Below are positions 10,235-27,261 of a stretch of 64,000 nt of DNA, piece by piece. The DNA is taken from NCBI RefSeq assembly GCF_000518485.1, contig NZ_JADR01000002.1, forward strand, positions 310,001 through 374,000. The letters are read 5' to 3'. The position numbers and the translations under genes are program-made. The first letter of the stretch is position 1; every line of letters starts with the position of its first letter. The notes under the pieces are model-generated. The model did not search any database and was not told the DNA's origin. It was given only the letters and a program-made list of their open reading frames with translations. Source of the stretch: Olleya marilimosa CAM030. GTDB taxonomy: Bacteria > Bacteroidota > Bacteroidia > Flavobacteriales > Flavobacteriaceae.

Positions 10235-10309
10235 ATGAGCAAACAAGTCATTATTATCATTTCTATTATTAGCATCGTGATTATTTCACGAAGCCAAGGA
10301 ATGCTATGA
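10235..10309 (+). CDS. ilv operon leader peptide (Ile/Val-rich)
   Basis: A 24-codon reading frame from ATG to TGA, upstream of ilvD. Its middle reads VIIIISIISIVII, with nine Ile and two Val among the 24 residues. That is the hallmark of a branched-chain amino-acid leader peptide. Its stop codon lies 25 bases before a strong terminator hairpin (from 10334), and the sequence just before the stop can pair with the terminator's 5' arm. Ribosome stalling when charged tRNA-Ile or tRNA-Val is scarce would favour read-through into ilvD. An imperfect -7 element (AATATTTG, 10219-10226) lies just upstream. Confidence 0.88.
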   Translation: MSKQVIIIISIISIVIISRSQGML

Positions 10310-10345
10310 TGAATTTAAACATATAATTTATTTAAAGCCTTCCTT
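10296..10345 (+). promoter_or_regulatory. Antiterminator pairing of the ilv attenuator
   Basis: AAGGAATGCT (10296-10305, last codons of the leader peptide) can pair with AGCCTTCCTT (10336-10345). Nine of ten positions pair, with one mismatch at 10302/10339. The second segment is the 5' arm of the terminator, so the two structures are mutually exclusive. A ribosome stalled in the Ile/Val run would leave 10296-10305 free; one at the stop codon would cover it. Confidence 0.75.
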
Positions 10346-10363
10346 TTTCGGAAGGCTTTTTTT
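10334..10363 (+). terminator. ilv attenuator terminator
   Basis: A nine-pair stem AAGCCTTCC (10335-10343) / GGAAGGCTT (10350-10358) with loop TTTTTC, followed by a T-run. It lies between the leader peptide and ilvD. From its end to ilvD there are about 160 AT-rich bases in which I see no further structure. Confidence 0.9.
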
Positions 10364-10524
10364 GTATAAAATATTATAGTATTGAGTATCATATAAATTA
10401 GCAGTTAAACAGTTGATAATCAATATTTTATTAAGTATTTTGCAGTATTGAGTTTAACTTGAAGTAAATAACAGTAATAGTCAAATAAAAGCAAATAAGT
10501 AATTTAGATTTAGTAGACATAAAC

Positions 10525-17394: not shown

Positions 17395-17421
17395 TTTGTA
17401 TTAAATTAAATTATACGTTTG
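17395..17421 (+). promoter_or_regulatory. Promoter of the arginine leader/operon
   Basis: An exact -7 element TACGTTTG at 17414-17421 followed by CATC and then the ATG of the first leader. A TTTG at 17395-17398 may be the -33 element, though the 15-base spacer is short. The transcript is expected to start at or next to the leader ATG. Confidence 0.7.
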
Positions 17422-17425
17422 CATC

Positions 17426-17491
17426 ATGTTTACAACTCTAAATAAAAACGAAAGACCCACAAGTTTGCTATTACGCAGACGACGTCGCTAA
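17426..17491 (+). CDS. Arginine operon leader peptide 1
   Basis: A 21-codon frame (ATG to TAA) just downstream of an exact -7 element and upstream of the arg operon. It ends in LLLRRRRR directly before the stop codon. The five Arg codons are CGC AGA CGA CGT CGC, so several tRNA-Arg species are sampled, and another Arg (AGA) occurs earlier. This is a textbook design for sensing charged tRNA-Arg by ribosome stalling. With only four bases between the -7 element and the ATG, the mRNA is probably leaderless. No strong terminator was found right after it; a T-rich tract (17521-17534) follows a weak CTATTA/TAATAG pairing. Confidence 0.85.
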   Translation: MFTTLNKNERPTSLLLRRRRR

Positions 17492-17540
17492 TACGCATAC
17501 TTCAAGCTTTTAGTTAATAGTTTTTATTTTTTTTCAGACA

Positions 17541-17636
17541 GTGAACAATTCAACACAAATATTTCCTTTTTTAAATACAGTTATTAGAAATAATAACAGG
17601 ATTGTTGTGCGTCCAATTTTACGTCGACGCCCTTAA
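17541..17636 (+). CDS. Possible second Arg-rich leader peptide
   Basis: A 31-codon frame starting at GTG and ending at TAA, 49 bases after leader 1. It contains six Arg codons (AGA, AGG, CGT, CGT, CGA, CGC) in the C-terminal half, ending VRPILRRRP. No ATG is available in frame, so translation is less certain than for leader 1. The stop codon sits in the TTAA loop of a six-pair hairpin ACGCCC/GGGTGT (17627-17642). The enrichment for Arg next to an arginine operon makes chance unlikely, but it could also be an untranslated remnant of an older leader. Confidence 0.5.
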   Translation: MNNSTQIFPFLNTVIRNNNRIVVRPILRRRP

Positions 17637-17711
17637 GGGTGTGCTTCTATTTATAGAACTTAGGTGAGTCCGGTTCTCCATTCAAAACAAAATTCCTGCA
17701 TAGACAGGAAT
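17627..17711 (+). promoter_or_regulatory. Hairpins in the arg operon 5' region
   Basis: Three stem-loops lie between leader 2 and the first arg gene: ACGCCC/GGGTGT (17627-17642), TTCTA/TAGAA (about 17644-17657) and ATTCCTG/CAGGAAT (17692-17711). None has an adjacent T-run, so they are not clear terminators. They may be alternative structures of the leader control region. Confidence 0.45.
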
Positions 17712-17756
17712 CTCAAAATCAAAATATTACTTTTTTAATTATTAAAACCAATTACA

Positions 17757-18383
17757 ATGGAAATTGTTATTGCTAATAAATCGCATAGTGTTTACGCAGA
17801 TATTATTTGCCAAACCATTGCAGATGCTGCTCAAGTTAGAGGTACTGGTATTGCAAAACGTAAACCGGAATATATCATTACTAAAATGGAAAACGGTAAT
17901 GCTGTTATCGCTTTAGAAGGCGATAAGTTTGCAGGATTTTGCTATATCGAACAATGGAGTCATGGTAAATTTGTGGCTAATTCAGGGTTAATTGTACATC
18001 CGGATTTTAGAAATATTGGCTTAGCTAAACAAATCAAACAGAAAATATTCGAGCATTCTAGAACCAAATTTCCGGATGCTAAAGTATTTAGTATCACCAC
18101 AGGTTTAGCAGTTATGAAAATGAATAGCGATTTAGGCTATAAACCAGTGACGTTTTCAGAATTGACCACAGATCAAAGTTTTTGGAATGGTTGTCAAACA
18201 TGTAAAAACTTTGATGTTTTGACCAGAACAGAACAGAAAATGTGTTTATGTACAGGCATGCTGTACGATCCTTCAAAAGAAGTAAAACAAACTCACCAAC
18301 ACAAATACGATAAAAAAGTGTGGACCAGATTAAAGAACATAAAACAGAGCATGTTCCTAAAAAAAGAAAAAAGAGATGAGTAA
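17757..18383 (+). CDS. GNAT N-acyltransferase, first gene of arg operon (candidate glutamate N-succinyl/acetyltransferase)
   Basis: A 208-residue protein with a GNAT fold at about 1-135: GLIVHPDFRNIGLAKQIKQKI is the acyl-CoA pyrophosphate loop (R/Q-x-x-G-x-A variant). After it comes a Cys cluster C146-x2-C149-x13-C163-x-C165 and a basic C-terminal tail; the cluster is unusual for a GNAT and may bind metal. No argA or argJ is present in the operon, so this protein is the natural candidate for the first step, N-acylation of glutamate. It overlaps argG by eight bases. The substrate (acetyl- or succinyl-CoA) is not shown by sequence. Confidence 0.75.
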   Translation: MEIVIANKSHSVYADIICQTIADAAQVRGTGIAKRKPEYIITKMENGNAVIALEGDKFAGFCYIEQWSHGKFVANSGLIVHPDFRNIGLAKQIKQKIFEHSRTKFPDAKVFSITTGLAVMKMNSDLGYKPVTFSELTTDQSFWNGCQTCKNFDVLTRTEQKMCLCTGMLYDPSKEVKQTHQHKYDKKVWTRLKNIKQSMFLKKEKRDE

Positions 18384-19563
18384 AAAATTAGTCATAGCAT
18401 ATAGTGGTGGATTAGACACATCCTATTGCGCAGTAAGTTTAAGTAAAGCAGGATATGATGTGCACGCAGTAAGTGTAAATACTGGTGGTTTTACTGTTGA
18501 AGAAATAAAAACTATTGAAGCGAATGCCTATAAAATGGGAGTATCAACCTATAAAAATATTGACGCAATTGCTTCGTATTACGATAAAGTGATCAAGTAT
18601 TTAATCTTCGGAAATGTGCTGAAAAACAACACCTATCCATTATCAGTAAGTGCTGAACGTATTATACAAGCTATCGAAATTATTGAATATGCTAAAAGTA
18701 TTGATGCCGAATATATCGCACACGGAAGCACAGGAGCAGGAAACGATCAAGTACGTTTTGATATGATTTTTCAAACCTTAGCACCACATATTAAAATTAT
18801 TACACCAATTAGAGACGGAAGTTTAAGCAGACAACAAGAAATTGATTACTTAAAAGCAAACGGTATTGAAGTATCTTGGGAAAAGGCAAAATATTCTGTT
18901 AATAAAGGACTTTGGGGAACTAGTGTTGGTGGAGAAGAAACATTAACATCAGAAAAACCATTACCAGAATCGGCATTTCCATCTCAATTAAAACATGCGG
19001 AAGAAGAGAAAGTTACTTTAACTTTTTTAAAAGGAGAATTGGTTGCTATTAACGGAATTGAAAACGCATCAGAAGTAAATATTGAAGTACTAAACAACCT
19101 TGCGTCTGCCTACGCAATTGGTAGAGATATTCACGTAGGTGATACAATTGTTGGTATAAAAGGTCGTGTTGGTTTTGAAGCTGCAGCAGCTTTAATTACT
19201 ATAAAAGCACACCATTTATTAGAAAAACATACGTTGACCAAATGGCAATTACAACATAAAGAATATTTAGCAAGTTTCTACGGAATGCATCTGCACGAAG
19301 GTCAATATTTAGATCCAGTAATGCGAGATATGGAAGCTTTTTTACAAAGCAGTCAAGACAAAGTCTCAGGAGATGTTTTTGTAACACTAAAACCATATCA
19401 TTTCAATTTAGATGGTATTACATCAAAGCATGATTTAATGAACGCAAAATTTGGAAGTTATGGTGAAGAAAATAAAGGTTGGACTGCAGATGAAGCTAAA
19501 GGGTTTATCAAAATTGTAGGGAATCAGAACAAAATCTATCAACAAGTAAACTCTGGAATTTAG
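18376..19563 (+). CDS. argG: Argininosuccinate synthase
   Basis: A 395-residue enzyme that condenses citrulline and aspartate with ATP. The PP-loop AYSGGLDTSYCAVSL is at the N-terminus, and the family segments AHGSTGAGNDQVRFD and SVNKGLWGTSVGGEE are visible. The start ATG lies inside the last codons of the GNAT gene, so translation is coupled. Length is normal for the family. argG as an early gene of the operon is usual for flavobacteria. A repeat arm lies between it and argC. Confidence 0.96.
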   Translation: MSKKLVIAYSGGLDTSYCAVSLSKAGYDVHAVSVNTGGFTVEEIKTIEANAYKMGVSTYKNIDAIASYYDKVIKYLIFGNVLKNNTYPLSVSAERIIQAIEIIEYAKSIDAEYIAHGSTGAGNDQVRFDMIFQTLAPHIKIITPIRDGSLSRQQEIDYLKANGIEVSWEKAKYSVNKGLWGTSVGGEETLTSEKPLPESAFPSQLKHAEEEKVTLTFLKGELVAINGIENASEVNIEVLNNLASAYAIGRDIHVGDTIVGIKGRVGFEAAAALITIKAHHLLEKHTLTKWQLQHKEYLASFYGMHLHEGQYLDPVMRDMEAFLQSSQDKVSGDVFVTLKPYHFNLDGITSKHDLMNAKFGSYGEENKGWTADEAKGFIKIVGNQNKIYQQVNSGI

Positions 19564-19590
19564 TCTTGCTGAACTTGTTTCAGTATCTCA
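19564..19590 (+). repeat. Palindromic repeat arm between argG and argC
   Basis: A single arm with the core CTGAACTTGTTTCAG, itself a near-palindrome. It matches arms at 22686, 22834, 23853 and 23968. It fills most of the 45-base gap between argG and argC. Confidence 0.7.
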
Positions 19591-19608
19591 AAAAATTAAG
19601 ATTTAAAC

Positions 19609-20592
19609 ATGAAAAAAATAGAAATAGGAATCATTGGAGGCGCAGGTTACACAGCAGGAGAGTTAATTAGATTGTTGTTAAATCATCCAAAAGCAAACAT
19701 CAATTTTATTTACAGTACCTCTAATACTGGAAATAAGATATATAAAGTACATCAAGATTTAATTGGTAGCACAGATTTGGAGTTTACCAATGAAATTAAC
19801 GCAGAAGTGGATATGTTATTCTTGTGTTTAGGTCACGGAAATTCTAAAGCATTTTTAGAAAATAATTCATTTTCTGCAGAAACTAAAATCATCGATTTAA
19901 GTAATGATTTCAGATTAACTAAAGACGCCATTTTTGAAGGAAAAACGTTTGTTTATGGTTTGCCAGAATTAAATAAAGTAGCGATAAAAAAAGCGAATTA
20001 CATTTCAAATCCAGGGTGTTTTGCATCTGCTATTCAGTTGGCATTATTGCCTTTAGCTAAAGCTGAAGTTTTGCAAAATGATGTACACGTTAATGCAGTT
20101 ACAGGAGCAACAGGAGCAGGAACATCATTATCAGCAACTACGCATTTTACGTGGCGAGATAATAACTTTTCGCATTATAAGGCTTTTACACATCAACATT
20201 TGGGTGAGATTAATCAATCGGTGAAACTGTTGCAATCTAACTTCAATTCGGATATTAATTTCGTGCCAAATCGAGGTGATTTTTCTAGAGGGATTTTTGC
20301 AACTATGTACACTAATTTTAAAGGAAGCTTGGAAGACGCAAAAGCATTGTATTCCGATTTTTATAAAGATGCTGCTTTTACTGTAGTTTCGGATGATGAG
20401 ATTCATTTAAAACAAGTGGTAAATACTAACAAATGCATCCTTCATTTACATAAACATGAAGACAAATTATTGGTCACAAGCATCATTGATAATTTACTAA
20501 AAGGCGCTTCGGGACAAGCTGTTCAAAACATGAACTTAATGTTTGGTTTTGATGAAACAGAAGGTTTAAAACTGAAAGCTACTTATTTTTAA
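19609..20592 (+). CDS. argC: N-acetyl/N-succinyl-gamma-glutamyl-phosphate reductase
   Basis: A 327-residue NADPH-dependent reductase of the acylated arginine pathway. Motifs are IGIIGGAGYTAGELIRLLLNHP (nucleotide fold), the catalytic Cys in NPGCFASAIQLALLPL and the HQHLGEINQ region with the catalytic His. Whether the acyl group is acetyl or succinyl cannot be read from this gene; the argF' type downstream points to succinyl. A 126-base MITE-like element separates it from proC. Confidence 0.95.
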   Translation: MKKIEIGIIGGAGYTAGELIRLLLNHPKANINFIYSTSNTGNKIYKVHQDLIGSTDLEFTNEINAEVDMLFLCLGHGNSKAFLENNSFSAETKIIDLSNDFRLTKDAIFEGKTFVYGLPELNKVAIKKANYISNPGCFASAIQLALLPLAKAEVLQNDVHVNAVTGATGAGTSLSATTHFTWRDNNFSHYKAFTHQHLGEINQSVKLLQSNFNSDINFVPNRGDFSRGIFATMYTNFKGSLEDAKALYSDFYKDAAFTVVSDDEIHLKQVVNTNKCILHLHKHEDKLLVTSIIDNLLKGASGQAVQNMNLMFGFDETEGLKLKATYF

Positions 20593-20605
20593 AAGTACTG
20601 CTGCT

Positions 20606-20731
20606 GCGTTAGCGGTTGAAGTGGCATCCTTTTTTGACGTCAGTTCGAGTGAATTTGTGAAGCATGAGCAAATTTGTATCGAGAACAAGGCAAAAAAGAT
20701 ATAACGGAAGACGCGACCCTTGTCGTAACGC
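20606..20731 (+). repeat. MITE-like intergenic repeat, copy B
   Basis: A 126-base element with terminal inverted repeats GCGTTA (20606-20611) and TAACGC (20726-20731). It matches copy A (5860-5981, other strand) over its whole length. It lies within the arg operon, between argC and proC, with no transposase. The frame of proC runs back into it, but that extension is not coding. Confidence 0.8.
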
Positions 20732-20748
20732 CAAAACAATATAAAATT

Positions 20749-21549
20749 ATGAAAATAGCAATTATAGGAACAGGAAACTTAGGAAAGTCCATCGCAAAAG
20801 GATTGATAACCAACAACGCCATTACCAGTTTGTATTTAACCAAACGGAATTTGGAAGACATTCAAGAATTTGATGGTTATAAAAATGTGCATTTAACGAC
20901 GGATAATACCGAAGCTGTAAGGCAATCTGATATCATCATTTTTGCAGTGCAACCAGCGCATTTTGAGCAAATATTGAATGACATTAAGCCGGAATTAACA
21001 GAGAAGCACGTCTTGATTTCGACCATTACTGGTTTTTTAATTCCTAAGATTGAAGCGCAAGTTGGAGCAGATAAATTTATCATTCGTGCGATGCCAAACA
21101 CAGCAATTGCAGTTGGTAAATCCATGACGTGTTTGTGTAGTAATGTGCAAGGAGCAAAACGTATTAAAATCGCTGAGGCTATTTTTAACCGTTTAGGACA
21201 TTCGTTGAGTATTCCGGAGAGCCAAATGCAGGCAGCAACTGTGGTTTGCGCAAGTGGTGTTGCGTTTTGGATGCGTTTAATTAGAGCGACAACACAAGCT
21301 GCTATTCAGTTAGGGTTTGATGCCAAAGAAGCACAAGAATTAGCGATGTATACCAGTGAAGGTGCTGCGAGCTTATTGATTACCAACGGGAATCATCCGG
21401 AAGAGGAAATAGACCGTGTAACGACTCCAAAAGGGTGTACGATTGAAGGTTTGAATGAGATGGAGCACAAAGGATTGAGTTCCTCTTTAATACAAGGTAT
21501 GATTGCCTCGTTTAACAAGATTAGTAACATTAAAGAAGAGCAGATATGA
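20749..21549 (+). CDS. proC: Pyrroline-5-carboxylate reductase
   Basis: A 266-residue enzyme that reduces pyrroline-5-carboxylate to proline. The N-terminal nucleotide loop is IAIIGTGNLGKSIAKGL, and the C-terminal family signature is PKGCTIEGLNEMEHKGLSSSLIQGM. The ATG at 20749 is chosen; a longer frame from 20674 would translate the repeat element. Its place inside an arginine operon links proline and arginine synthesis at the glutamate-semialdehyde/ornithine level. It overlaps argD by four bases (ATGA), which indicates coupled translation. Confidence 0.94.
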   Translation: MKIAIIGTGNLGKSIAKGLITNNAITSLYLTKRNLEDIQEFDGYKNVHLTTDNTEAVRQSDIIIFAVQPAHFEQILNDIKPELTEKHVLISTITGFLIPKIEAQVGADKFIIRAMPNTAIAVGKSMTCLCSNVQGAKRIKIAEAIFNRLGHSLSIPESQMQAATVVCASGVAFWMRLIRATTQAAIQLGFDAKEAQELAMYTSEGAASLLITNGNHPEEEIDRVTTPKGCTIEGLNEMEHKGLSSSLIQGMIASFNKISNIKEEQI

Positions 21550-22673
21550 GTTTATTTAACGTCTATCCATTATTCGATATCACACCAGTAAAAGCTGTAG
21601 ATGTCTTTGTTTTTGATGAAAATAACACCAAATATCTAGATTTATATGGTGGACATGCAGTGATTTCTATTGGGCATTCTCATCCAAAATACGTGGCTGC
21701 CATTTCTGATCAAGTAGCCAAATTAGGATTTTATAGCAACTCGATTCAGAATCCATTACAAGTACAATTAGCGGACAAGTTAGAGCAGTTATCTGGTTGT
21801 AAAAACTACGAGTTGTTTTTATGTAATTCTGGTGCAGAAGCCAATGAAAATGCTTTAAAACTGGCGTCATTCCATAACGGAAAGAAAAAAGTAGTTGCTT
21901 TTAAAAATGGTTTTCATGGTCGTACATCAGCAGCAGTTGCGGCAACAGATAATACGAAGATTATTGCGCCAATTAATGCACAGCAAGAGGTTGAAATTCT
22001 AGAATTAGGAGACTTGGAAGATGCGGAAAAAGCACTAGCTAAAAACGATGTTTGTGCAGTAATTATTGAGTGTATTCAAGGTGTTGGAGGGTTAGACGAA
22101 AGTACTGCAGCGTTTTACGAAGGTGTCGATGCATTATGTAAAAAATACAATACGTGTTTTATTGCAGATGAGGTGCAATCTGGTTTTGGAAGAACTGGCG
22201 ATTTCTTCGCGTTTCAGAAATATAATGTGACTCCAGATATTATTTCGATTGCCAAAGGTATGGGAAATGGGTTTCCGATTGGTGGTATTTTAATTCATCC
22301 AGACATTAAAGCATCTTTTGGTTTGTTAGGAACCACTTTTGGTGGAAATCATTTAGCATGTGTAGCTTCTTTGACGGTTTTAGAAGTTATTGAAGAAGAG
22401 CATTTGATGCAAAATGCTAAAGATATCTCAGCTTATTTTATTGAAAAAGCAAAAGGAATTTCGGCAATAAAAAACATCAAAGGAAGAGGATTAATGCTTG
22501 GTTTGGAATTTGATTTTCCAATAGCTGAACTGCGTAAAAAGCTAATTTTTGAACATAAGATATTTACAGGAAGCGCAAAGAATCCTAATTTATTAAGAAT
22601 TCTTCCGCCTTTAACCATCAAAAAAGAACATATCGATTTGTTTTTTGATGCTTTAAAAAAGGAATTAAAATAG
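21546..22673 (+). CDS. argD: Acetyl/succinylornithine aminotransferase
   Basis: A 375-residue class III PLP aminotransferase. Motifs are GGHAVISIGHSHPKY, LCNSGAEANENALKLA, FHGRTSAAVAAT, ADEVQSGFGRTG and the PLP Lys in SIAKGMGNGFPIGG. It converts N-acylglutamate semialdehyde to N-acylornithine with glutamate as donor. It is coupled to proC by a 4-base overlap. Being about 20 residues shorter than many ArgD proteins is normal for Bacteroidota. A 238-base gap containing two palindromic repeats follows. Confidence 0.93.
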   Translation: MSLFNVYPLFDITPVKAVDVFVFDENNTKYLDLYGGHAVISIGHSHPKYVAAISDQVAKLGFYSNSIQNPLQVQLADKLEQLSGCKNYELFLCNSGAEANENALKLASFHNGKKKVVAFKNGFHGRTSAAVAATDNTKIIAPINAQQEVEILELGDLEDAEKALAKNDVCAVIIECIQGVGGLDESTAAFYEGVDALCKKYNTCFIADEVQSGFGRTGDFFAFQKYNVTPDIISIAKGMGNGFPIGGILIHPDIKASFGLLGTTFGGNHLACVASLTVLEVIEEEHLMQNAKDISAYFIEKAKGISAIKNIKGRGLMLGLEFDFPIAELRKKLIFEHKIFTGSAKNPNLLRILPPLTIKKEHIDLFFDALKKELK

Positions 22674-22685
22674 TAATGCGAGTAA

Positions 22686-22749
22686 CGTCATTCTGAACTA
22701 GTTTAAGAATCACATAATAGTGAGAATCTGAAATAAATTCAGCTTGACG
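22686..22749 (+). repeat. Paired palindromic repeat 1 (argD-argF gap)
   Basis: Two arms in inverted orientation: CGTCATTCTGAACTAGTTTA... and ...AAATTCAGCTTGACG. The arms can pair into a long hairpin, and each contains its own near-palindrome CTGAA-N-TTCAG. Confidence 0.75.
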
Positions 22750-22833
22750 AGAGTTGTGGATACATGAAAATAAGTGTGTGTAATAGCGTTTATATTGAGT
22801 ATTAAATGCTAAGAAATAAGAATTAAATAGCAA

Positions 22834-22894
22834 CGTCATTCTGAACTAGTTTCAGAATCGCATAACAGTGAGAAGCTGAAATGAATTCAGTAAG
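22834..22894 (+). repeat. Paired palindromic repeat 2 (argD-argF gap)
   Basis: Near-copy of repeat 1 with a complete left arm (CGTCATTCTGAACTAGTTTC) and a right arm truncated after ATTCAG. It ends 17 bases before the argF' start codon. Confidence 0.75.
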
Positions 22895-22911
22895 ATTAAA
22901 GTAATAAATAG

Positions 22912-23847
22912 ATGAAAAAGTATACCAAAATAAAAGACATATCAAATCTTCAAGAAACTATAAAGGAAGCCATTTTATTAAAAATGAACCCTTTTGAATT
23001 CGAAGATTTAGGAAAACATAAAACGCTAGTCATGTTATTTTTTAATGCTAGTTTGCGTACACGATTAAGTACCGAAAAAGCTGCAAAAAATTTAGGAATG
23101 GAAGTCATGATTTTAAATGTAAATGATGCTTGGAATTTAGAGTTTGAAGATGGTACAGTCATGAATGCAAACACGTCTGAACATATTAAAGAAGCTGCGC
23201 AAGTGATATCGCAATATGCCGATGTTATCGCTATTAGAGCTTTTCCAAGTTTAACTGATAAGCAAAAAGACGAAAGTGAATTTGTAATGAACAGCTTTGT
23301 GAAATACGCAACTGTGCCAATAGTAAATATGGAGAGTGCAACTGCGCATCCTTTACAAGCATTGGCAGATGCAATTACTATTTCTGAATTTACCAAAAAA
23401 GAAAAACCAAAAGTAGTCTTGTCTTGGGCGCCACACCCAAAAGCATTGCCACAAGCGGTTGCGAATTCGTTTGTAGAAATGATGCAAAACTTGGATGTAG
23501 ATTTAACCATTACGCATCCTGAAGGTTATGAGTTAAGCGAAGCAATCACCAAAAACACACCAATAAATCACAATCAAGAAGCTGCTTTAAAAGATGCCGA
23601 TTTTGTCTATGTGAAAAACTGGAGTAATTATAAAGACTACGGAAAAGTATTAAATCAGGATGAAAATTGGATGATGACTAAAGCAAAGTTAGGCAATGCA
23701 AAATTTATGCATTGTTTACCTGTAAGACGAAATGTGGTTGTGGAAGATGCGGTTTTGGATGGCCAGCAATCAGTGGTTATTCAACAAGCAAATAATAGGA
23801 CTTTTGCTGCGCAAATTGTCTTGAAGCAAATTTTGGGGAAATTGTAA
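22912..23847 (+). CDS. argF': N-succinylornithine (N-acetylornithine) carbamoyltransferase
   Basis: A 311-residue transcarbamylase. The carbamoyl-phosphate loop is ASLRTRLST instead of the STRTR of ordinary OTCase. HPLQALAD and HCLPVRRNVVVEDAVLD are also present. This pattern is that of the Bacteroides fragilis N-succinylornithine transcarbamylase and Xanthomonas N-acetylornithine transcarbamylase. It carbamoylates acylated ornithine, so deacylation comes later, by ArgE. In Bacteroidota the acyl group is known to be succinyl. The loop that sets acyl choice aligns by eye near residues 85-92 (MNANTSEH) and has Ser where I recall Pro or Glu in characterised enzymes. Confidence 0.9.
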   Translation: MKKYTKIKDISNLQETIKEAILLKMNPFEFEDLGKHKTLVMLFFNASLRTRLSTEKAAKNLGMEVMILNVNDAWNLEFEDGTVMNANTSEHIKEAAQVISQYADVIAIRAFPSLTDKQKDESEFVMNSFVKYATVPIVNMESATAHPLQALADAITISEFTKKEKPKVVLSWAPHPKALPQAVANSFVEMMQNLDVDLTITHPEGYELSEAITKNTPINHNQEAALKDADFVYVKNWSNYKDYGKVLNQDENWMMTKAKLGNAKFMHCLPVRRNVVVEDAVLDGQQSVVIQQANNRTFAAQIVLKQILGKL

Positions 23848-23852
23848 TGTTA

Positions 23853-23924
23853 CGTCATGCTGAGTTTATTTCAGTATCACACAATTAGTAAATAATGAGA
23901 AGCTGAAACAAGTTCAGCTTGACG
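23853..23924 (+). repeat. Paired palindromic repeat 3 (argF-argB gap)
   Basis: Complete two-arm copy: CGTCATGCTGAGTTTATTTC... and ...ACAAGTTCAGCTTGACG, separated by about 20 bases. The arms are reverse complements with a few mismatches. Confidence 0.8.
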
Positions 23925-23967
23925 ATTGAGGTTTTAAAGTAAGCAATAAGTTAATGTTAATCCGTCA

Positions 23968-23995
23968 CGTCATACTGAATTCATTTCAGTATCAC
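23968..23995 (+). repeat. Palindromic repeat arm 4 (before argB)
   Basis: A single left arm (CGTCATACTGAATTCATTTC, then AGTATCAC), 18 bases before the argB ATG. Confidence 0.7.
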
Positions 23996-24013
23996 ATCAA
24001 AAGAAGAATAAGC

Positions 24014-24790
24014 ATGAAAACACTAAAAATTATAAAAATTGGAGGAAACATCATCGATGATGATAACGCCTTACAGCAATTCCTAAAAGCATTCGCGACT
24101 ATAGATGCTCCTAAAATCCTAGTGCATGGTGGTGGGAAATTAGCAACCAAATTGGCGCAAAAAATGCAAGTTGAGGTTAAAATGATTGACGGAAGACGAG
24201 TAACCGATCAAGTGACTTTAGATATTATTACTATGGTCTATGCAGGTAAAATAAACAAAAATATAGTCGCGCAATTACAAGCAAATCATTGTAATGCTAT
24301 TGGTTTTTCTGGAGCAGATGGTAATACAATAGTATCTAATAAACGACCTGTAAATGCTATAGATTATGGTTTTGTTGGTGATGTTAAACAGGTCAATACC
24401 GAAACTTTAGAGATTCTTTTAAATAATAATATTACTCCTGTTTTTTGTGCCATTTCTCATGATAAAAACGGACAATTATTAAATACAAATGCAGATACGA
24501 TTGCTTCAGAATTAGCAATAGGCTTTGCGTCAAAATGGAATTCAGAATTATATTATTGTTTTGAAAAAAATGGGGTTTTAGAACATGTAGATGATGACAA
24601 TTCTGTTATTGAAAACATTAACACAGCAACCTATAAAACATTAGTAGATAATAAAGTGATTTTTGAAGGCATGCTTCCTAAATTAAATAACTGTTTTCAT
24701 GCCATAAATCATAACGTACAAAAAGTTTGTATAGGTAAAGCGCAAATGCTTTTTCAAAAAGACAATAAACACACAACCATTACAAAATGA
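24014..24790 (+). CDS. argB: Acetyl/succinylglutamate kinase
   Basis: A 258-residue amino-acid kinase that phosphorylates N-acylglutamate. The opening KIIKIGGNIIDDDNAL and the HGGGKLATKLA loop bind ATP and substrate; late segments LNTNADTIASELA are family-typical. The frame is open from 23954, but that extension would translate the repeat arm, so the ATG at 24014 is chosen. It overlaps argE by four bases (ATGA). The usual Arg-sensitive N-terminal helix seen in hexameric NAGK is not evident, so direct feedback by arginine is doubtful; this is inferred. Confidence 0.92.
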   Translation: MKTLKIIKIGGNIIDDDNALQQFLKAFATIDAPKILVHGGGKLATKLAQKMQVEVKMIDGRRVTDQVTLDIITMVYAGKINKNIVAQLQANHCNAIGFSGADGNTIVSNKRPVNAIDYGFVGDVKQVNTETLEILLNNNITPVFCAISHDKNGQLLNTNADTIASELAIGFASKWNSELYYCFEKNGVLEHVDDDNSVIENINTATYKTLVDNKVIFEGMLPKLNNCFHAINHNVQKVCIGKAQMLFQKDNKHTTITK

Positions 24791-25848
24791 TAGAAAAACT
24801 AACAACCAGGGCAATTGCATTGTTAAAGCAATTGATAGAAACGCAGTCGTTTTCTTCAGAAGAAGGGCCTACTGCTGCGCATATTGAGCAATGGTTTAAG
24901 CAACAAGATATTGCGTTTCATCGTACACAACATAATGTTTGGTCTACTAACAAGCATTTTGATGAAAGTAAACCAACCTTATTATTAAATTCACATCACG
25001 ACACAGTAAAACCAAATAATGGTTACACAAAAGATCCTTTTAAAGCTATTGTTGAAGATGGAAAATTATATGGTTTAGGAAGTAATGATGCAGGTGGTTG
25101 TTTGGTGAGTTTATTAGCAACCTACGCGTATTTTTACAATAGAGAAGATTTAAATTTTAATTTGGTTATTGTCGCTTCCGCTGAAGAAGAAAGCAGTGGA
25201 GAAAATGGATTAAATAGTATGTTACCTGTTATTCCAAAAGTAGACGTCGCTATTGTTGGAGAACCAACTTTAATGAATTTAGCTGTTGCCGAAAAAGGCT
25301 TGGTTGTGTTTGATGCAATCGTAAAAGGAACGCCAAGTCATGCTGCGCATCCAAATCATGATAATGCGATTTATAATACCATTCCAGTTTTAGAATGGTT
25401 TAGAAATTACACGTTCGATAAAAGTTCGGAAGCTTTGGGTGAAGTAAAATTAACCGTTACACAAATCAACGCAGGAAAGCAGCATAATGCAGTGCCAGCT
25501 GATGTAAAGTTAGTGGTAGATGTTAGAGTAAACGATAAATATTCCAATCAAGAAATTGTAGATATTTTACAAAAGGAAGCGCCTTGTGATAGTATTATTC
25601 CAAGAAGTATAAAATTAAATTCATCGTCTATTCCAATCGATCATCCATTGGTAATTGCAGGAATAGAAATTGGTAGAAGCACTTATGGTTCGCCAACATT
25701 ATCAGATCAAGCGGTTTTGAGTTGTCCTTCCTTAAAATTAGGTCCAGGAGATAGCACACGATCGCATTCTGCAGATGAGTTTATTTATTTAAATGAAATT
25801 GAAGAAGGCATTAAAATATATATCGAATTATTAGAAAAAGTATTGTAA
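24787..25848 (+). CDS. argE: Acetyl/succinylcitrulline deacylase (M20 family, ArgE-like)
   Basis: A 353-residue di-metal M20 peptidase-family enzyme. Metal and catalytic segments are NSHHDTVKP, GLGSNDAGG, SAEEESSGENG and the C-terminal GPGDSTRSHSADE. In a pathway with ArgF', it removes the acyl group from N-acylcitrulline to give citrulline for ArgG; in the standard pathway the substrate would be acetylornithine. The context favours acylcitrulline. It is coupled to argB by an ATGA overlap. A 138-base gap containing a large palindrome follows before argH. Confidence 0.88.
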   Translation: MIEKLTTRAIALLKQLIETQSFSSEEGPTAAHIEQWFKQQDIAFHRTQHNVWSTNKHFDESKPTLLLNSHHDTVKPNNGYTKDPFKAIVEDGKLYGLGSNDAGGCLVSLLATYAYFYNREDLNFNLVIVASAEEESSGENGLNSMLPVIPKVDVAIVGEPTLMNLAVAEKGLVVFDAIVKGTPSHAAHPNHDNAIYNTIPVLEWFRNYTFDKSSEALGEVKLTVTQINAGKQHNAVPADVKLVVDVRVNDKYSNQEIVDILQKEAPCDSIIPRSIKLNSSSIPIDHPLVIAGIEIGRSTYGSPTLSDQAVLSCPSLKLGPGDSTRSHSADEFIYLNEIEEGIKIYIELLEKVL

Positions 25849-25854
25849 GATTTT

Positions 25855-25956
25855 CGTCAGTTTGAGTGTTTCGACTGTAAGGAGAAATGTATCGAAAACA
25901 AGAAAATACTTCTCGATATAATTCTGATAAAAAAATCAGAATCACTCGAAGTAACG
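25855..25956. repeat. Long imperfect palindrome (argE-argH gap), copy C
   Basis: CGTCAGTTTGAGTG at the left end is the imperfect inverse of CACTCGAAGTAACG at the right end. Inner segments TGTATCGA and TCGATATA, and TCTGAT/ATCAGA, pair in turn. Its left half matches the central part of the MITE-like copies A and B (CGTCAGTTYGAGTG ... TGTATCGARAACAAG). Confidence 0.75.
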
Positions 25957-25986
25957 AAGAACAAATCAACAGATAAACTAAAGATT

Positions 25987-27261
25987 ATGAAACTCTGGGA
26001 CAAAGGTATTAGTATTGATAAAAAAATAGAACAATTTACAGTTGGAAACGACAGAGAAATAGATCTTCATATTGCTAAGTACGATGTGCAAGCGTCATTA
26101 GCTCATGCTATTATGTTGGAGTCCATTGGAATCATTTCTTCAGAAGAATTGCAACAATTAAAAAATGGTTTAAACGCTATTGCGGAAACTATAAAAAACG
26201 GAACCTTCGTTATTGAAGAATCCTTTGAAGATGTACATTCTAAAATTGAATACGAACTAACAAAAACTTTAGGCGATGTTGGAAAAAAAATTCACACAGC
26301 ACGTTCAAGAAACGATCAAGTTTTAGTTGCTCTTCAGTTATATTATAAAGAAAATTTAAAAGAAATTAACGAAAAAACAAATACGCTTTTTGAAACGCTT
26401 TTAGGCTTAGCCGAAACGCATAAAGAAGTTTTACTTCCAGGTTATACGCATTTACAAGTCGCAATGCCTTCTTCTTTCGGTTTGTGGTTTTCTGCTTATG
26501 CTGAGGTTTTAATAGATGATGTATACTTGCTAAATGCAGCATTAAAAACAGTAGATCAAAATCCGTTAGGTTCTGCTGCAGGTTACGGAAGTTCTTTTCC
26601 TATTGATAGAGAGTTAACAACAAAAGAATTAAACTTTGCGACCTTAAAATATAATGTGGTTGCTGCACAAATGAGTAGAGGGAAAAGCGAGAGAACTATC
26701 GCTTTAGCTTTAGGTAGTGTGTGTAATACATTGGCGCGTTTTGCAATGGATATTTGTGTGTATAATAGTCAGAATTTTGGCTTCATCGCTTTTCCTGATG
26801 AGCTTACTACAGGAAGCAGTATTATGCCACATAAAAAGAATCCAGATGTGTTTGAATTGATTAGAGGGAAAGCAAATAAAATTCAAGCCTTACATCATGA
26901 AATGGTTTTAATAACCAATAATTTACCAAGTGGTTACCATAGAGATTTTCAGTTGTTAAAAGAAAATATTATTGCAGCAATTGAAGATGTAAAGGACTTA
27001 TTAGACATTTTTAATTACGCTATTCAGCAAGTCATTGTAAAAGAAATAGACTTAAACGATGCCAAATACCAATACCTATTTACAGTTGATAATATTAATA
27101 CTTTAGTGGTTGAAGGAATGCCATTTAGAGAAGCCTATCAGAAAATTGGAGGTGAAGTAGAAAACGGAACGTACAAACCAGACACTTCAAAAAAACATAC
27201 TCATATTGGTAGTATTGGTAATTTGTGTTTGGATGGGATTAGAGCGAAGTATCCTAAGTAA
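25987..27261 (+). CDS. argH: Argininosuccinate lyase
   Basis: A 424-residue fumarase-superfamily enzyme that splits argininosuccinate into arginine and fumarate. Motifs are DVHSKIEYELT, KIHTARSRNDQV, PGYTHLQVAMP and the signature GSSIMPHKKNPDVFELIRGK carrying the flexible catalytic loop. It is somewhat shorter than the ~460-residue E. coli form, as usual in Bacteroidota. It is the last gene of the operon and is followed by a strong terminator shared with convergent gltD. Confidence 0.96.
   Translation: MKLWDKGISIDKKIEQFTVGNDREIDLHIAKYDVQASLAHAIMLESIGIISSEELQQLKNGLNAIAETIKNGTFVIEESFEDVHSKIEYELTKTLGDVGKKIHTARSRNDQVLVALQLYYKENLKEINEKTNTLFETLLGLAETHKEVLLPGYTHLQVAMPSSFGLWFSAYAEVLIDDVYLLNAALKTVDQNPLGSAAGYGSSFPIDRELTTKELNFATLKYNVVAAQMSRGKSERTIALALGSVCNTLARFAMDICVYNSQNFGFIAFPDELTTGSSIMPHKKNPDVFELIRGKANKIQALHHEMVLITNNLPSGYHRDFQLLKENIIAAIEDVKDLLDIFNYAIQQVIVKEIDLNDAKYQYLFTVDNINTLVVEGMPFREAYQKIGGEVENGTYKPDTSKKHTHIGSIGNLCLDGIRAKYPK

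Follow-up and report, generated by a model that had tools for sequence, protein, structure and literature searches.

The classical leader-peptide attenuators are those of the his, trp, leu, ilv and thr operons of enteric bacteria. In model bacteria the ArgR repressor controls arginine synthesis, which to our knowledge is seldom cited as a case of attenuation. The Bacteroidota make little use of Shine-Dalgarno initiation. In mycobacteria, leaderless short ORFs encoding polycysteine attenuate the operon downstream of them, as stated in the title of Canestrari et al., 2020 (cited in PMC13236596). The passage on Staphylococcus aureus rbfL in PMC13009471 describes an arginine-sensing leader peptide encoded by a short upstream frame, and for Flavobacterium psychrophilum the corresponding passage of PMC9723704 speaks of strong clues of leader-peptide attenuation before amino-acid biosynthesis operons. 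No arginine leader in Bacteroidota is named in the excerpts of the open-licence literature covered by the search (for one query, the best 20 of 72 records), nor in the relevant passages of PMC9723704, PMC7366714, PMC13009471, PMC4997734, PMC8632094 and PMC13236596.

The locus described here lies before an arginine operon in the window -- the whole 64,000-nucleotide stretch of Olleya marilimosa CAM030 DNA that was analysed -- and all of its features are on the + strand. On the sequence evidence set out below, it is probably a tandem leader-peptide attenuator for arginine, one in which two serial short frames would sense arginine through their Arg codons.

The arginine operon and the first leader frame

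Related loci were gathered by a search with the gene 1 protein, which matched in 32 of the 60 genomes searched (own genome included) and gave 30 loci, and from named records, of which the best 80 of 201 relatives were kept, so that the sample leans to close relatives; an RNA model added 18 further loci. The final set consists of 118 distinct regions with at least 388 nt upstream of gene 1 (one locus, L027, was left out as too short), and the locus counts given here reflect shared ancestry and hence are not counts of independent events. Among those best 80 of 201 records, the closest named loci by gene 1 protein belong to Lacinutrix, Oceanihabitans, Olleya and Psychroserpens, all of which we take to be Flavobacteriaceae.

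Gene 1 of the operon (17757-18383) encodes a GNAT-like N-acetyltransferase according to its single NCBIfam match, a weak one (E 5e-5) that lies under the cut-off of that model. It is followed, at 18376-27261, by argG, argC, proC, argD, the gene for acetylornithine carbamoyltransferase, argB, the gene for an ArgE/DapE-family deacylase and argH, all named from their best matches, though those of argG, argD and the deacylase are under the curated cut-offs. These downstream genes match the arginine biosynthesis set, in agreement with an earlier, sequence-only reading that had placed both short frames upstream of an arg operon. The layout given in that reading -- a promoter box, a 21-codon frame ending RRRRR, a 49-base spacer, a GTG-started 31-codon frame and a hairpin -- was confirmed when the sequence was read again.

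A promoter of the Bacteroidota sigma-A type is predicted at 17395-17421, with TTTG as the -33-like element and an exact TACGTTTG as the -7 element at 17414-17421; CATC follows, and then the ATG of ORF1 at 17426. The exact arrangement TAnnTTTG-N3-8-ATG occurs at 14 sites in the window, and only at 17426 does it open a frame with an Arg run. A looser -7-like box, defined as TAnnT[TA][TA][GA], stands before 25 of the 752 other ATGs in the upstream regions compared; the final four bases of the loose box are TTTG in 36 cases, TTTA in 35 and TTAG in 21.

ORF1 (17426-17491) encodes the predicted leaderless leader peptide MFTTLNKNERPTSLLLRRRRR, with 21 codons and the 3' end CGC AGA CGA CGT CGC TAA. 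Its start is predicted to be leaderless from the spacing of the box, the end of TACGTTTG being 4 nt from the ATG; the same gap of 4 nt is found in 74 of the 92 loci with a boxed ORF1, where the start sites are likewise predicted rather than mapped, and to that extent the leaderless arrangement suggested from the single sequence is upheld by comparison. An ORF1-type frame is present in 97 of the 118 loci when an Arg criterion is used (two of these, in L129 and L131, are unboxed Arg-containing frames) and a -7-like box in 92. Picked by box and position with no Arg criterion, ORF1 is found in 78 of the 101 loci with ORF2, and 76 of those 78 frames have 15-28 codons and at least two Arg among the final nine, 72 of them having at least three. 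Conservation of the Arg runs in close relatives, on which the sequence-only reading had staked itself, is thus what was found.

In the ORF1 frames picked in this way Arg accounts for 23.1% of the codons, against 3.0% in the genes of the window. The window has 1429 nested D-TG-started frames with lengths of 15-35 codons; Arg is missing from the final 8 codons in 990 of them, while two frames have four there and one has five. It had been proposed that mixed codons would sense several tRNA-Arg species at once; the codons are indeed mixed, but they are chiefly CGN (322 of 419 Arg codons in 83 ORF1s), so that the proposal holds only in part; CGC makes up 48% of the Arg codons in ORF1 as against 7.7% in the window genes, an enrichment that is compatible with Arg codons doubling as the arms of GC-rich hairpins. 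Of the single-base codon changes in the ORF1 frame, 63 of 154 are synonymous; for the two other frames the figures are 43 of 183 and 29 of 167 (P 5e-4 and 2e-6; 17 minus-strand loci are left out of these counts, as they are from the tally of 88 ORF2 starts given below). With this excess and its recurrence in relatives, ORF1 looks like a coding frame. Its N-terminus varies widely among the loci.

Predicted folds and the second leader frame

The region between the two frames is predicted to form a long-range stem, S0, both arms of which were delimited from the fold and from a test of cognate against non-cognate arms. The 5' arm (17439-17457) lies in A-rich codons of ORF1, and the 3' arm (17507-17530) runs into the U-tract TTTTTATTTTTTTT (17521-17534), which ends 6 nt before the ORF2 start. 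Within S0 the predicted fold has an inner hairpin, the H1/H2 region (17461-17502), that holds the Arg codons and the stop of ORF1; in the folded representatives, too, S0 encloses hairpins with the Arg codons and stop, and in many relatives H1/H2 is predicted as two separate hairpins. Over 82 loci, the pairing joins about nucleotides 12-33 of ORF1 with the 30 bases preceding the ORF2 start (medians). When arms were swapped among 51 representatives, the cognate pairs averaged -11.1 kcal/mol and the non-cognate ones -7.0 (z -12.0), and none of 20,000 permutations was as low as the cognate energy; three control pairings put through the same swap test gave z values of 0.19, 1.38 and 0.50. (The representatives for the arm-swap and stem tests were drawn at three thresholds.) The segment from ORF1 to ORF2 folds with a mean z of -2.9 (97% of values below -1, n=37), against -0.7 for the comparison segment, the 120 nt upstream of the promoter.

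S0 was missed by the terminator scan because that scan allows only loops of 3-8. On the + strand the scan found P1 only (described below), terminator-like with 6 pairs and a broken U tail, and no canonical intrinsic terminator before gene 1 in the leader of the window. The earlier statement that there is no canonical terminator stands for short hairpins, with the correction that the folding predicts S0, a long-range, branched stem resembling a terminator, between the frames. S0 has a strong U-tract but a loop that is long and branched.

ORF2 (17541-17636) begins 49 nt after ORF1 with a GTG and encodes the putative second leader peptide, MNNSTQIFPFLNTVIRNNNRIVVRPILRRRP, with 31 codons, six of them for Arg; it ends RPILRRRP, and its TAA is within the loop of P1. 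With the start taken as the D-TG codon closest to 31 codons, the tally of starts is TTG 37, GTG 30 and ATG 21 of 88, and the distance from the start to the anchor, the CGC of P1, is 30 codons in 52 of the 88. When the anchor codon is excluded, Arg occupies 293 of 2526 ORF2 codons (11.6%, the window genes again being at 3.0%) and CGC makes up 26% of the Arg codons. At -6, outside both P0 and P1, Arg is found in 69 of 112 loci, encoded by CGA in 11, CGC in 30 and CGT in 28. The excess of synonymous changes is weak in ORF2 (P 0.087 against one of the other frames, 7e-5 against the second). Nine loci (L017, L018, L019, L021, L098, L128, L129, L131 and L134) have no boxed ORF1; in these, ORF2 opens with an ATG shortly past a -7-like box, as in MKGQRHISNTLSNLAPVRPFSRRRRP. 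The element common to nearly all loci is ORF2 with its hairpins, and not ORF1.

The hairpin P0 (17580-17597, GTTATT-AGAAAT-AATAAC) lies inside ORF2 and was recognized by its steady position, near -48 from the anchor, and by compensating changes; its sequence varies, and no more than 25-50% of the representatives have a best stem that scores beyond the 95th percentile of shuffles. P1 (17627-17642, ACGCCC-TTAA-GGGTGT) has the last Arg-Pro codons as its 5' arm and the stop within its loop. Its consensus, CGCCC-N4-GGGYG, is nearly invariant, with two-sided change at one pair and the outer pair broken in 23 of 83 loci, and covariation says little about P1 because it hardly varies. The tail that follows is poor for a terminator, with a median of 7 U in 12 nt and a median longest run of 3.

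P2 (17655-17677, AGAAC-UUA-GG-UGAGU-CC-GGUUCU) is a previously undescribed hairpin with a near-invariant ten-base core, AGGUGNGUCC, at 17662-17671. A regular expression for the core, which matches 1.8% of shuffled stretches, finds it in 113 of the 118 upstream regions, the strict helix test giving 104 loci. Positions 2, 5 and 7 of the core are G and position 10 is C in all 113, while the inner pair has changed on both sides, from G-C to A-U, in four. The five regions without the core (L025, L026, L028, L029 and L030) are from genomes outside the Flavobacteriaceae. P1 and P2 together have 35 double-change cells, where shuffles have 9.1 and none of 500 is as high; the RNAalifold consensus by itself has 5 pairs only, and folding of the segment from ORF2 to P2 is slightly beyond that of shuffles (mean z -1.2). 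Covariation over the whole leader brings out S0, P0 and P2, and no convincing alternative helix pairing P1 or P2 with other parts. Of the predicted helices, S0 and P2 are shown to covary; for the folds that lie over control codons, the support is strong for S0 and weaker for P0 and P1. Rfam 15 gives three matches below the gathering score, none of them over 17395-17756.

As a genome-wide motif P2 was rejected. The exact AGGTGNGTCC has 9 matches in the genome compared with 1 for the reversed control; among the six inspected, only the arg site and one other (in L116) fold as P2, and the latter, which by eye is antisense inside a NifU-like gene, was taken as chance. The matches left unjudged are those on the reverse strand of L113 and L118, plus one without a locus. 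Downstream of P2, an exact TAnnTTTG is found before gene 1 in none of 104 loci, and an exact downstream promoter past the ORF2 start in 4 of 101. An inverted repeat, ATTCCTG...CAGGAAT, lies between P2 and gene 1 in the window (17688-17715), and in several folded loci the start codon of gene 1 can fall in a small CAATT...AATTG hairpin (17740-17775 in the window).

Proposed mechanism and alternative readings

In the proposed attenuator, transcription would start at or next to the ATG of ORF1, and ribosomes would load straight onto the 5' end of the message. When Arg-tRNA is short, a ribosome would pause at the Arg codons that close ORF1. H1/H2 holds these codons, and its folding would join the arms of S0 ahead of the U-tract; the paused ribosome would keep H1/H2 open, S0 would stay unclosed and RNA polymerase would continue. 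With ample arginine the ribosome would depart and S0 would close, and either transcription would end or the ORF2 start would be masked. (For the sign of the response, the usual logic of biosynthetic operons is assumed.) Between the end of the S0 5' arm and the first clustered Arg codon there is a median gap of 12 nt, so that the arm would lie largely out of reach of a paused ribosome, and the step must then act by blocking H1/H2, which would make it weaker than that of textbook attenuators. ORF2 would repeat the test, its final Arg codons forming the 5' arm of P1, which a paused ribosome would keep open. P2 may act as the output, or it may be where a putative partner binds, and its near-constant place is compatible with a role near the start of gene 1.

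The same sensing by Arg codons could also have a translational output, in which S0 would hide the U-rich start region of ORF2 while P1 and P2 set the translation of gene 1, with no termination of transcription -- a possibility to be taken seriously, though on the whole an unlikely one. It is favoured by the short distance from the end of the S0 3' arm to the ORF2 start, a median of 5 nt, by the lack of a canonical terminator in the leader of the window, and by the position of the P2 core, which begins at a median of -66 from the gene 1 ATG (quartiles -68 to -64, 113 loci; in the window it is farther away, at -95). What speaks for a transcriptional output is the composition of the segment before ORF2: over 82 loci its best 10-nt window has a median of 9 U, a richness in U equal to that of terminator tails, whereas the 34 nt before gene 1 have a median of 7 on the same measure.

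P2 might also be a new regulatory RNA with an input of its own, consisting of a bulged stem, two inner pairs and a UGNGU loop. Its ligand or protein partner would possibly be arginine or, on the model of lambda N, which binds boxB, the Arg-rich leader peptide; this is put forward as a rather doubtful suggestion. If it were true, the locus would combine two serial sensors of tRNA charging with a further arginine input separate from both, and this in an order in which a search of 60 genomes turned up no ArgR.

It is improbable that the frames encode arrest peptides in the style of TnaC or SpeFL, which would sense free arginine or ornithine and not the charging of tRNA. The hallmark of TnaC-type peptides is a conserved Pro-stop together with a fixed sensor residue. 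TnaC ends RP-stop, as ORF2 does; in 87 of 112 loci the codon that follows the Pro is a stop (never TGA), and Asn is common at -11 (65 of 112) and at -12 (55 of 112). Against this, that codon is not a stop in the other 25 of the 112, the peptide continuing past Pro as PLG in 21 of them; the pair of Asn falls within P0, and outside the Arg/Pro end the peptides diverge, with no fixed residue found there in these loci. The nine single-leader loci, with their boxed ORF2, likewise have little in common beyond that end.

Still another reading has the folds P0-P1-P2 regulating alone, as a riboswitch or a protein-binding RNA, with ORF2 kept open through other constraints. The near-invariance of the P2 core and the co-change of its inner pair would suit it, but the frame test makes it very improbable: when anchored on the CGC of P1, and not on any open frame, the 26 codons before the anchor contain no stop in the ORF2 frame at 111 of 112 loci, while the two other frames are equally open at only 8 and 10 of them. 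ORF2 accordingly looks to be coding, and the doubling of the leader that the sequence-only reading had offered as possible is supported. The promoter-like box directly before ORF2 in the nine loci without a boxed ORF1, and the lack of an Rfam match over the leader, also argue against regulation by these folds alone.

Distribution and comparison with described systems

The RNA model built on P1 and P2 has matches in 18 of 395 genomes of the phylum. Sixteen are in the family (own genome included), and all 16 are situated upstream of the same gene 1; the two outside it (E 3e-4 and 8e-4 over the 395 genomes) are at the level of chance and were rejected. At least 20 family genomes among those listed are without a match, 19 of them in the genus g48, which we infer to be Flavobacterium; a further 357 genomes of the phylum sample gave no match either. 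In six g48 genomes and one g58 genome the 450 nt before the acetyltransferase-argG pair contain no P2 core (0 of 7), and no Arg run was found before the pair; the best short frames there have one Arg in the final nine codons in the g48 genomes and three in the g58 genome. The absence of the leader from these seven genomes, which belong to two further genera of the family, counts against the proposed attenuator. It is also what could be said for the short frames being chance, or remnants of a functional small protein unrelated to arginine control, but this is scarcely credible given the Arg content of both frames relative to the window genes, the frame and arm-swap tests, and the placement of all 16 family matches before one gene.

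Several other short frames deserve mention. In a second family (L143 and L144), Arg-rich frames ending RRRRPVRR and YRRRPVRV stand before the same operon, without P2; in L025, from a further family and also without P2, a leaderless-looking frame, MKQVNIYTPSERPVLTIGIGRFSPLDRFRREPNRQ, begins about -194 from gene 1. Five g48 genomes (L138, L139, L140, L141 and L142), which are without the Arg leader, have a recurring frame of 26-28 codons, such as MNKISLHITSLSRTNSPVTSPEVRILSL, about -323 from the acetyltransferase. In the window itself, ilvD is preceded by an Ile/Val-rich leader, MSKQVIIIISIISIVIISRSQGML (10235-10309 and about 10335-10364), after which a GCCTTCC/GGAAGGC hairpin and a T-run can be made out by eye; it looks like a classical attenuator. 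In the same genome, hisG is preceded by a His leader, MNFIQLHHHHFHTCTQAS, and then by a terminator-like hairpin and T-run (L119, about 1162-1218, by eye), and this looks like an ordinary attenuator.

A search for the ArgR C-domain was negative in all 60 genomes of the order, own genome included, and positive in 8 of 14 control genomes, a Bacteroides among them, while most of the sampled arg loci of the family carry the predicted leaderless leader-peptide system. If the proposed attenuator is real, it would be a new arginine sensor and a natural case of two leader peptides in series, as well as a test case of attenuation on leaderless messages.

Of the systems already described, the leaders of F. 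psychrophilum are from the same family, and arginine is not named in the passage that reports them (PMC9723704); in the genus inferred to be Flavobacterium the arg leader is absent from the six genomes checked. The carA gene of Pseudomonas aeruginosa resembles the present case in that a leader peptide precedes a gene whose product contributes to arginine synthesis, but there the attenuation described is under pyrimidine control, and the passage does not mention a tandem or leaderless layout (PMC4997734). S. aureus rbfL resembles it in what is sensed: Arg codons in a short upstream frame respond to arginine limitation. According to the passage, however, it has two Arg codons and is non-biosynthetic, and ribosomes that pause there shield the region where a biofilm regulator starts and repress that regulator (PMC13009471). 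The polycysteine ORFs, as far as their title tells, share the short frame with its run of a single amino acid and have the leaderless start that is predicted for the arg leader; they differ in the amino acid, cysteine, and in belonging to mycobacteria.

What the locus shares with the classical attenuators is a short frame that carries a run of end-product codons before the matching operon and has hairpins interleaved with it; here the frame stands before its cognate operon, the run consists of Arg codons, and the predicted folds lie over these control codons. The his and ilv leaders of the same genome each have, by eye, a canonical terminator, and the arg leader does not. It further departs from the classical attenuators in the amino acid concerned, arginine, in its two serial frames, in its predicted leaderless start and in the additional hairpin P2.
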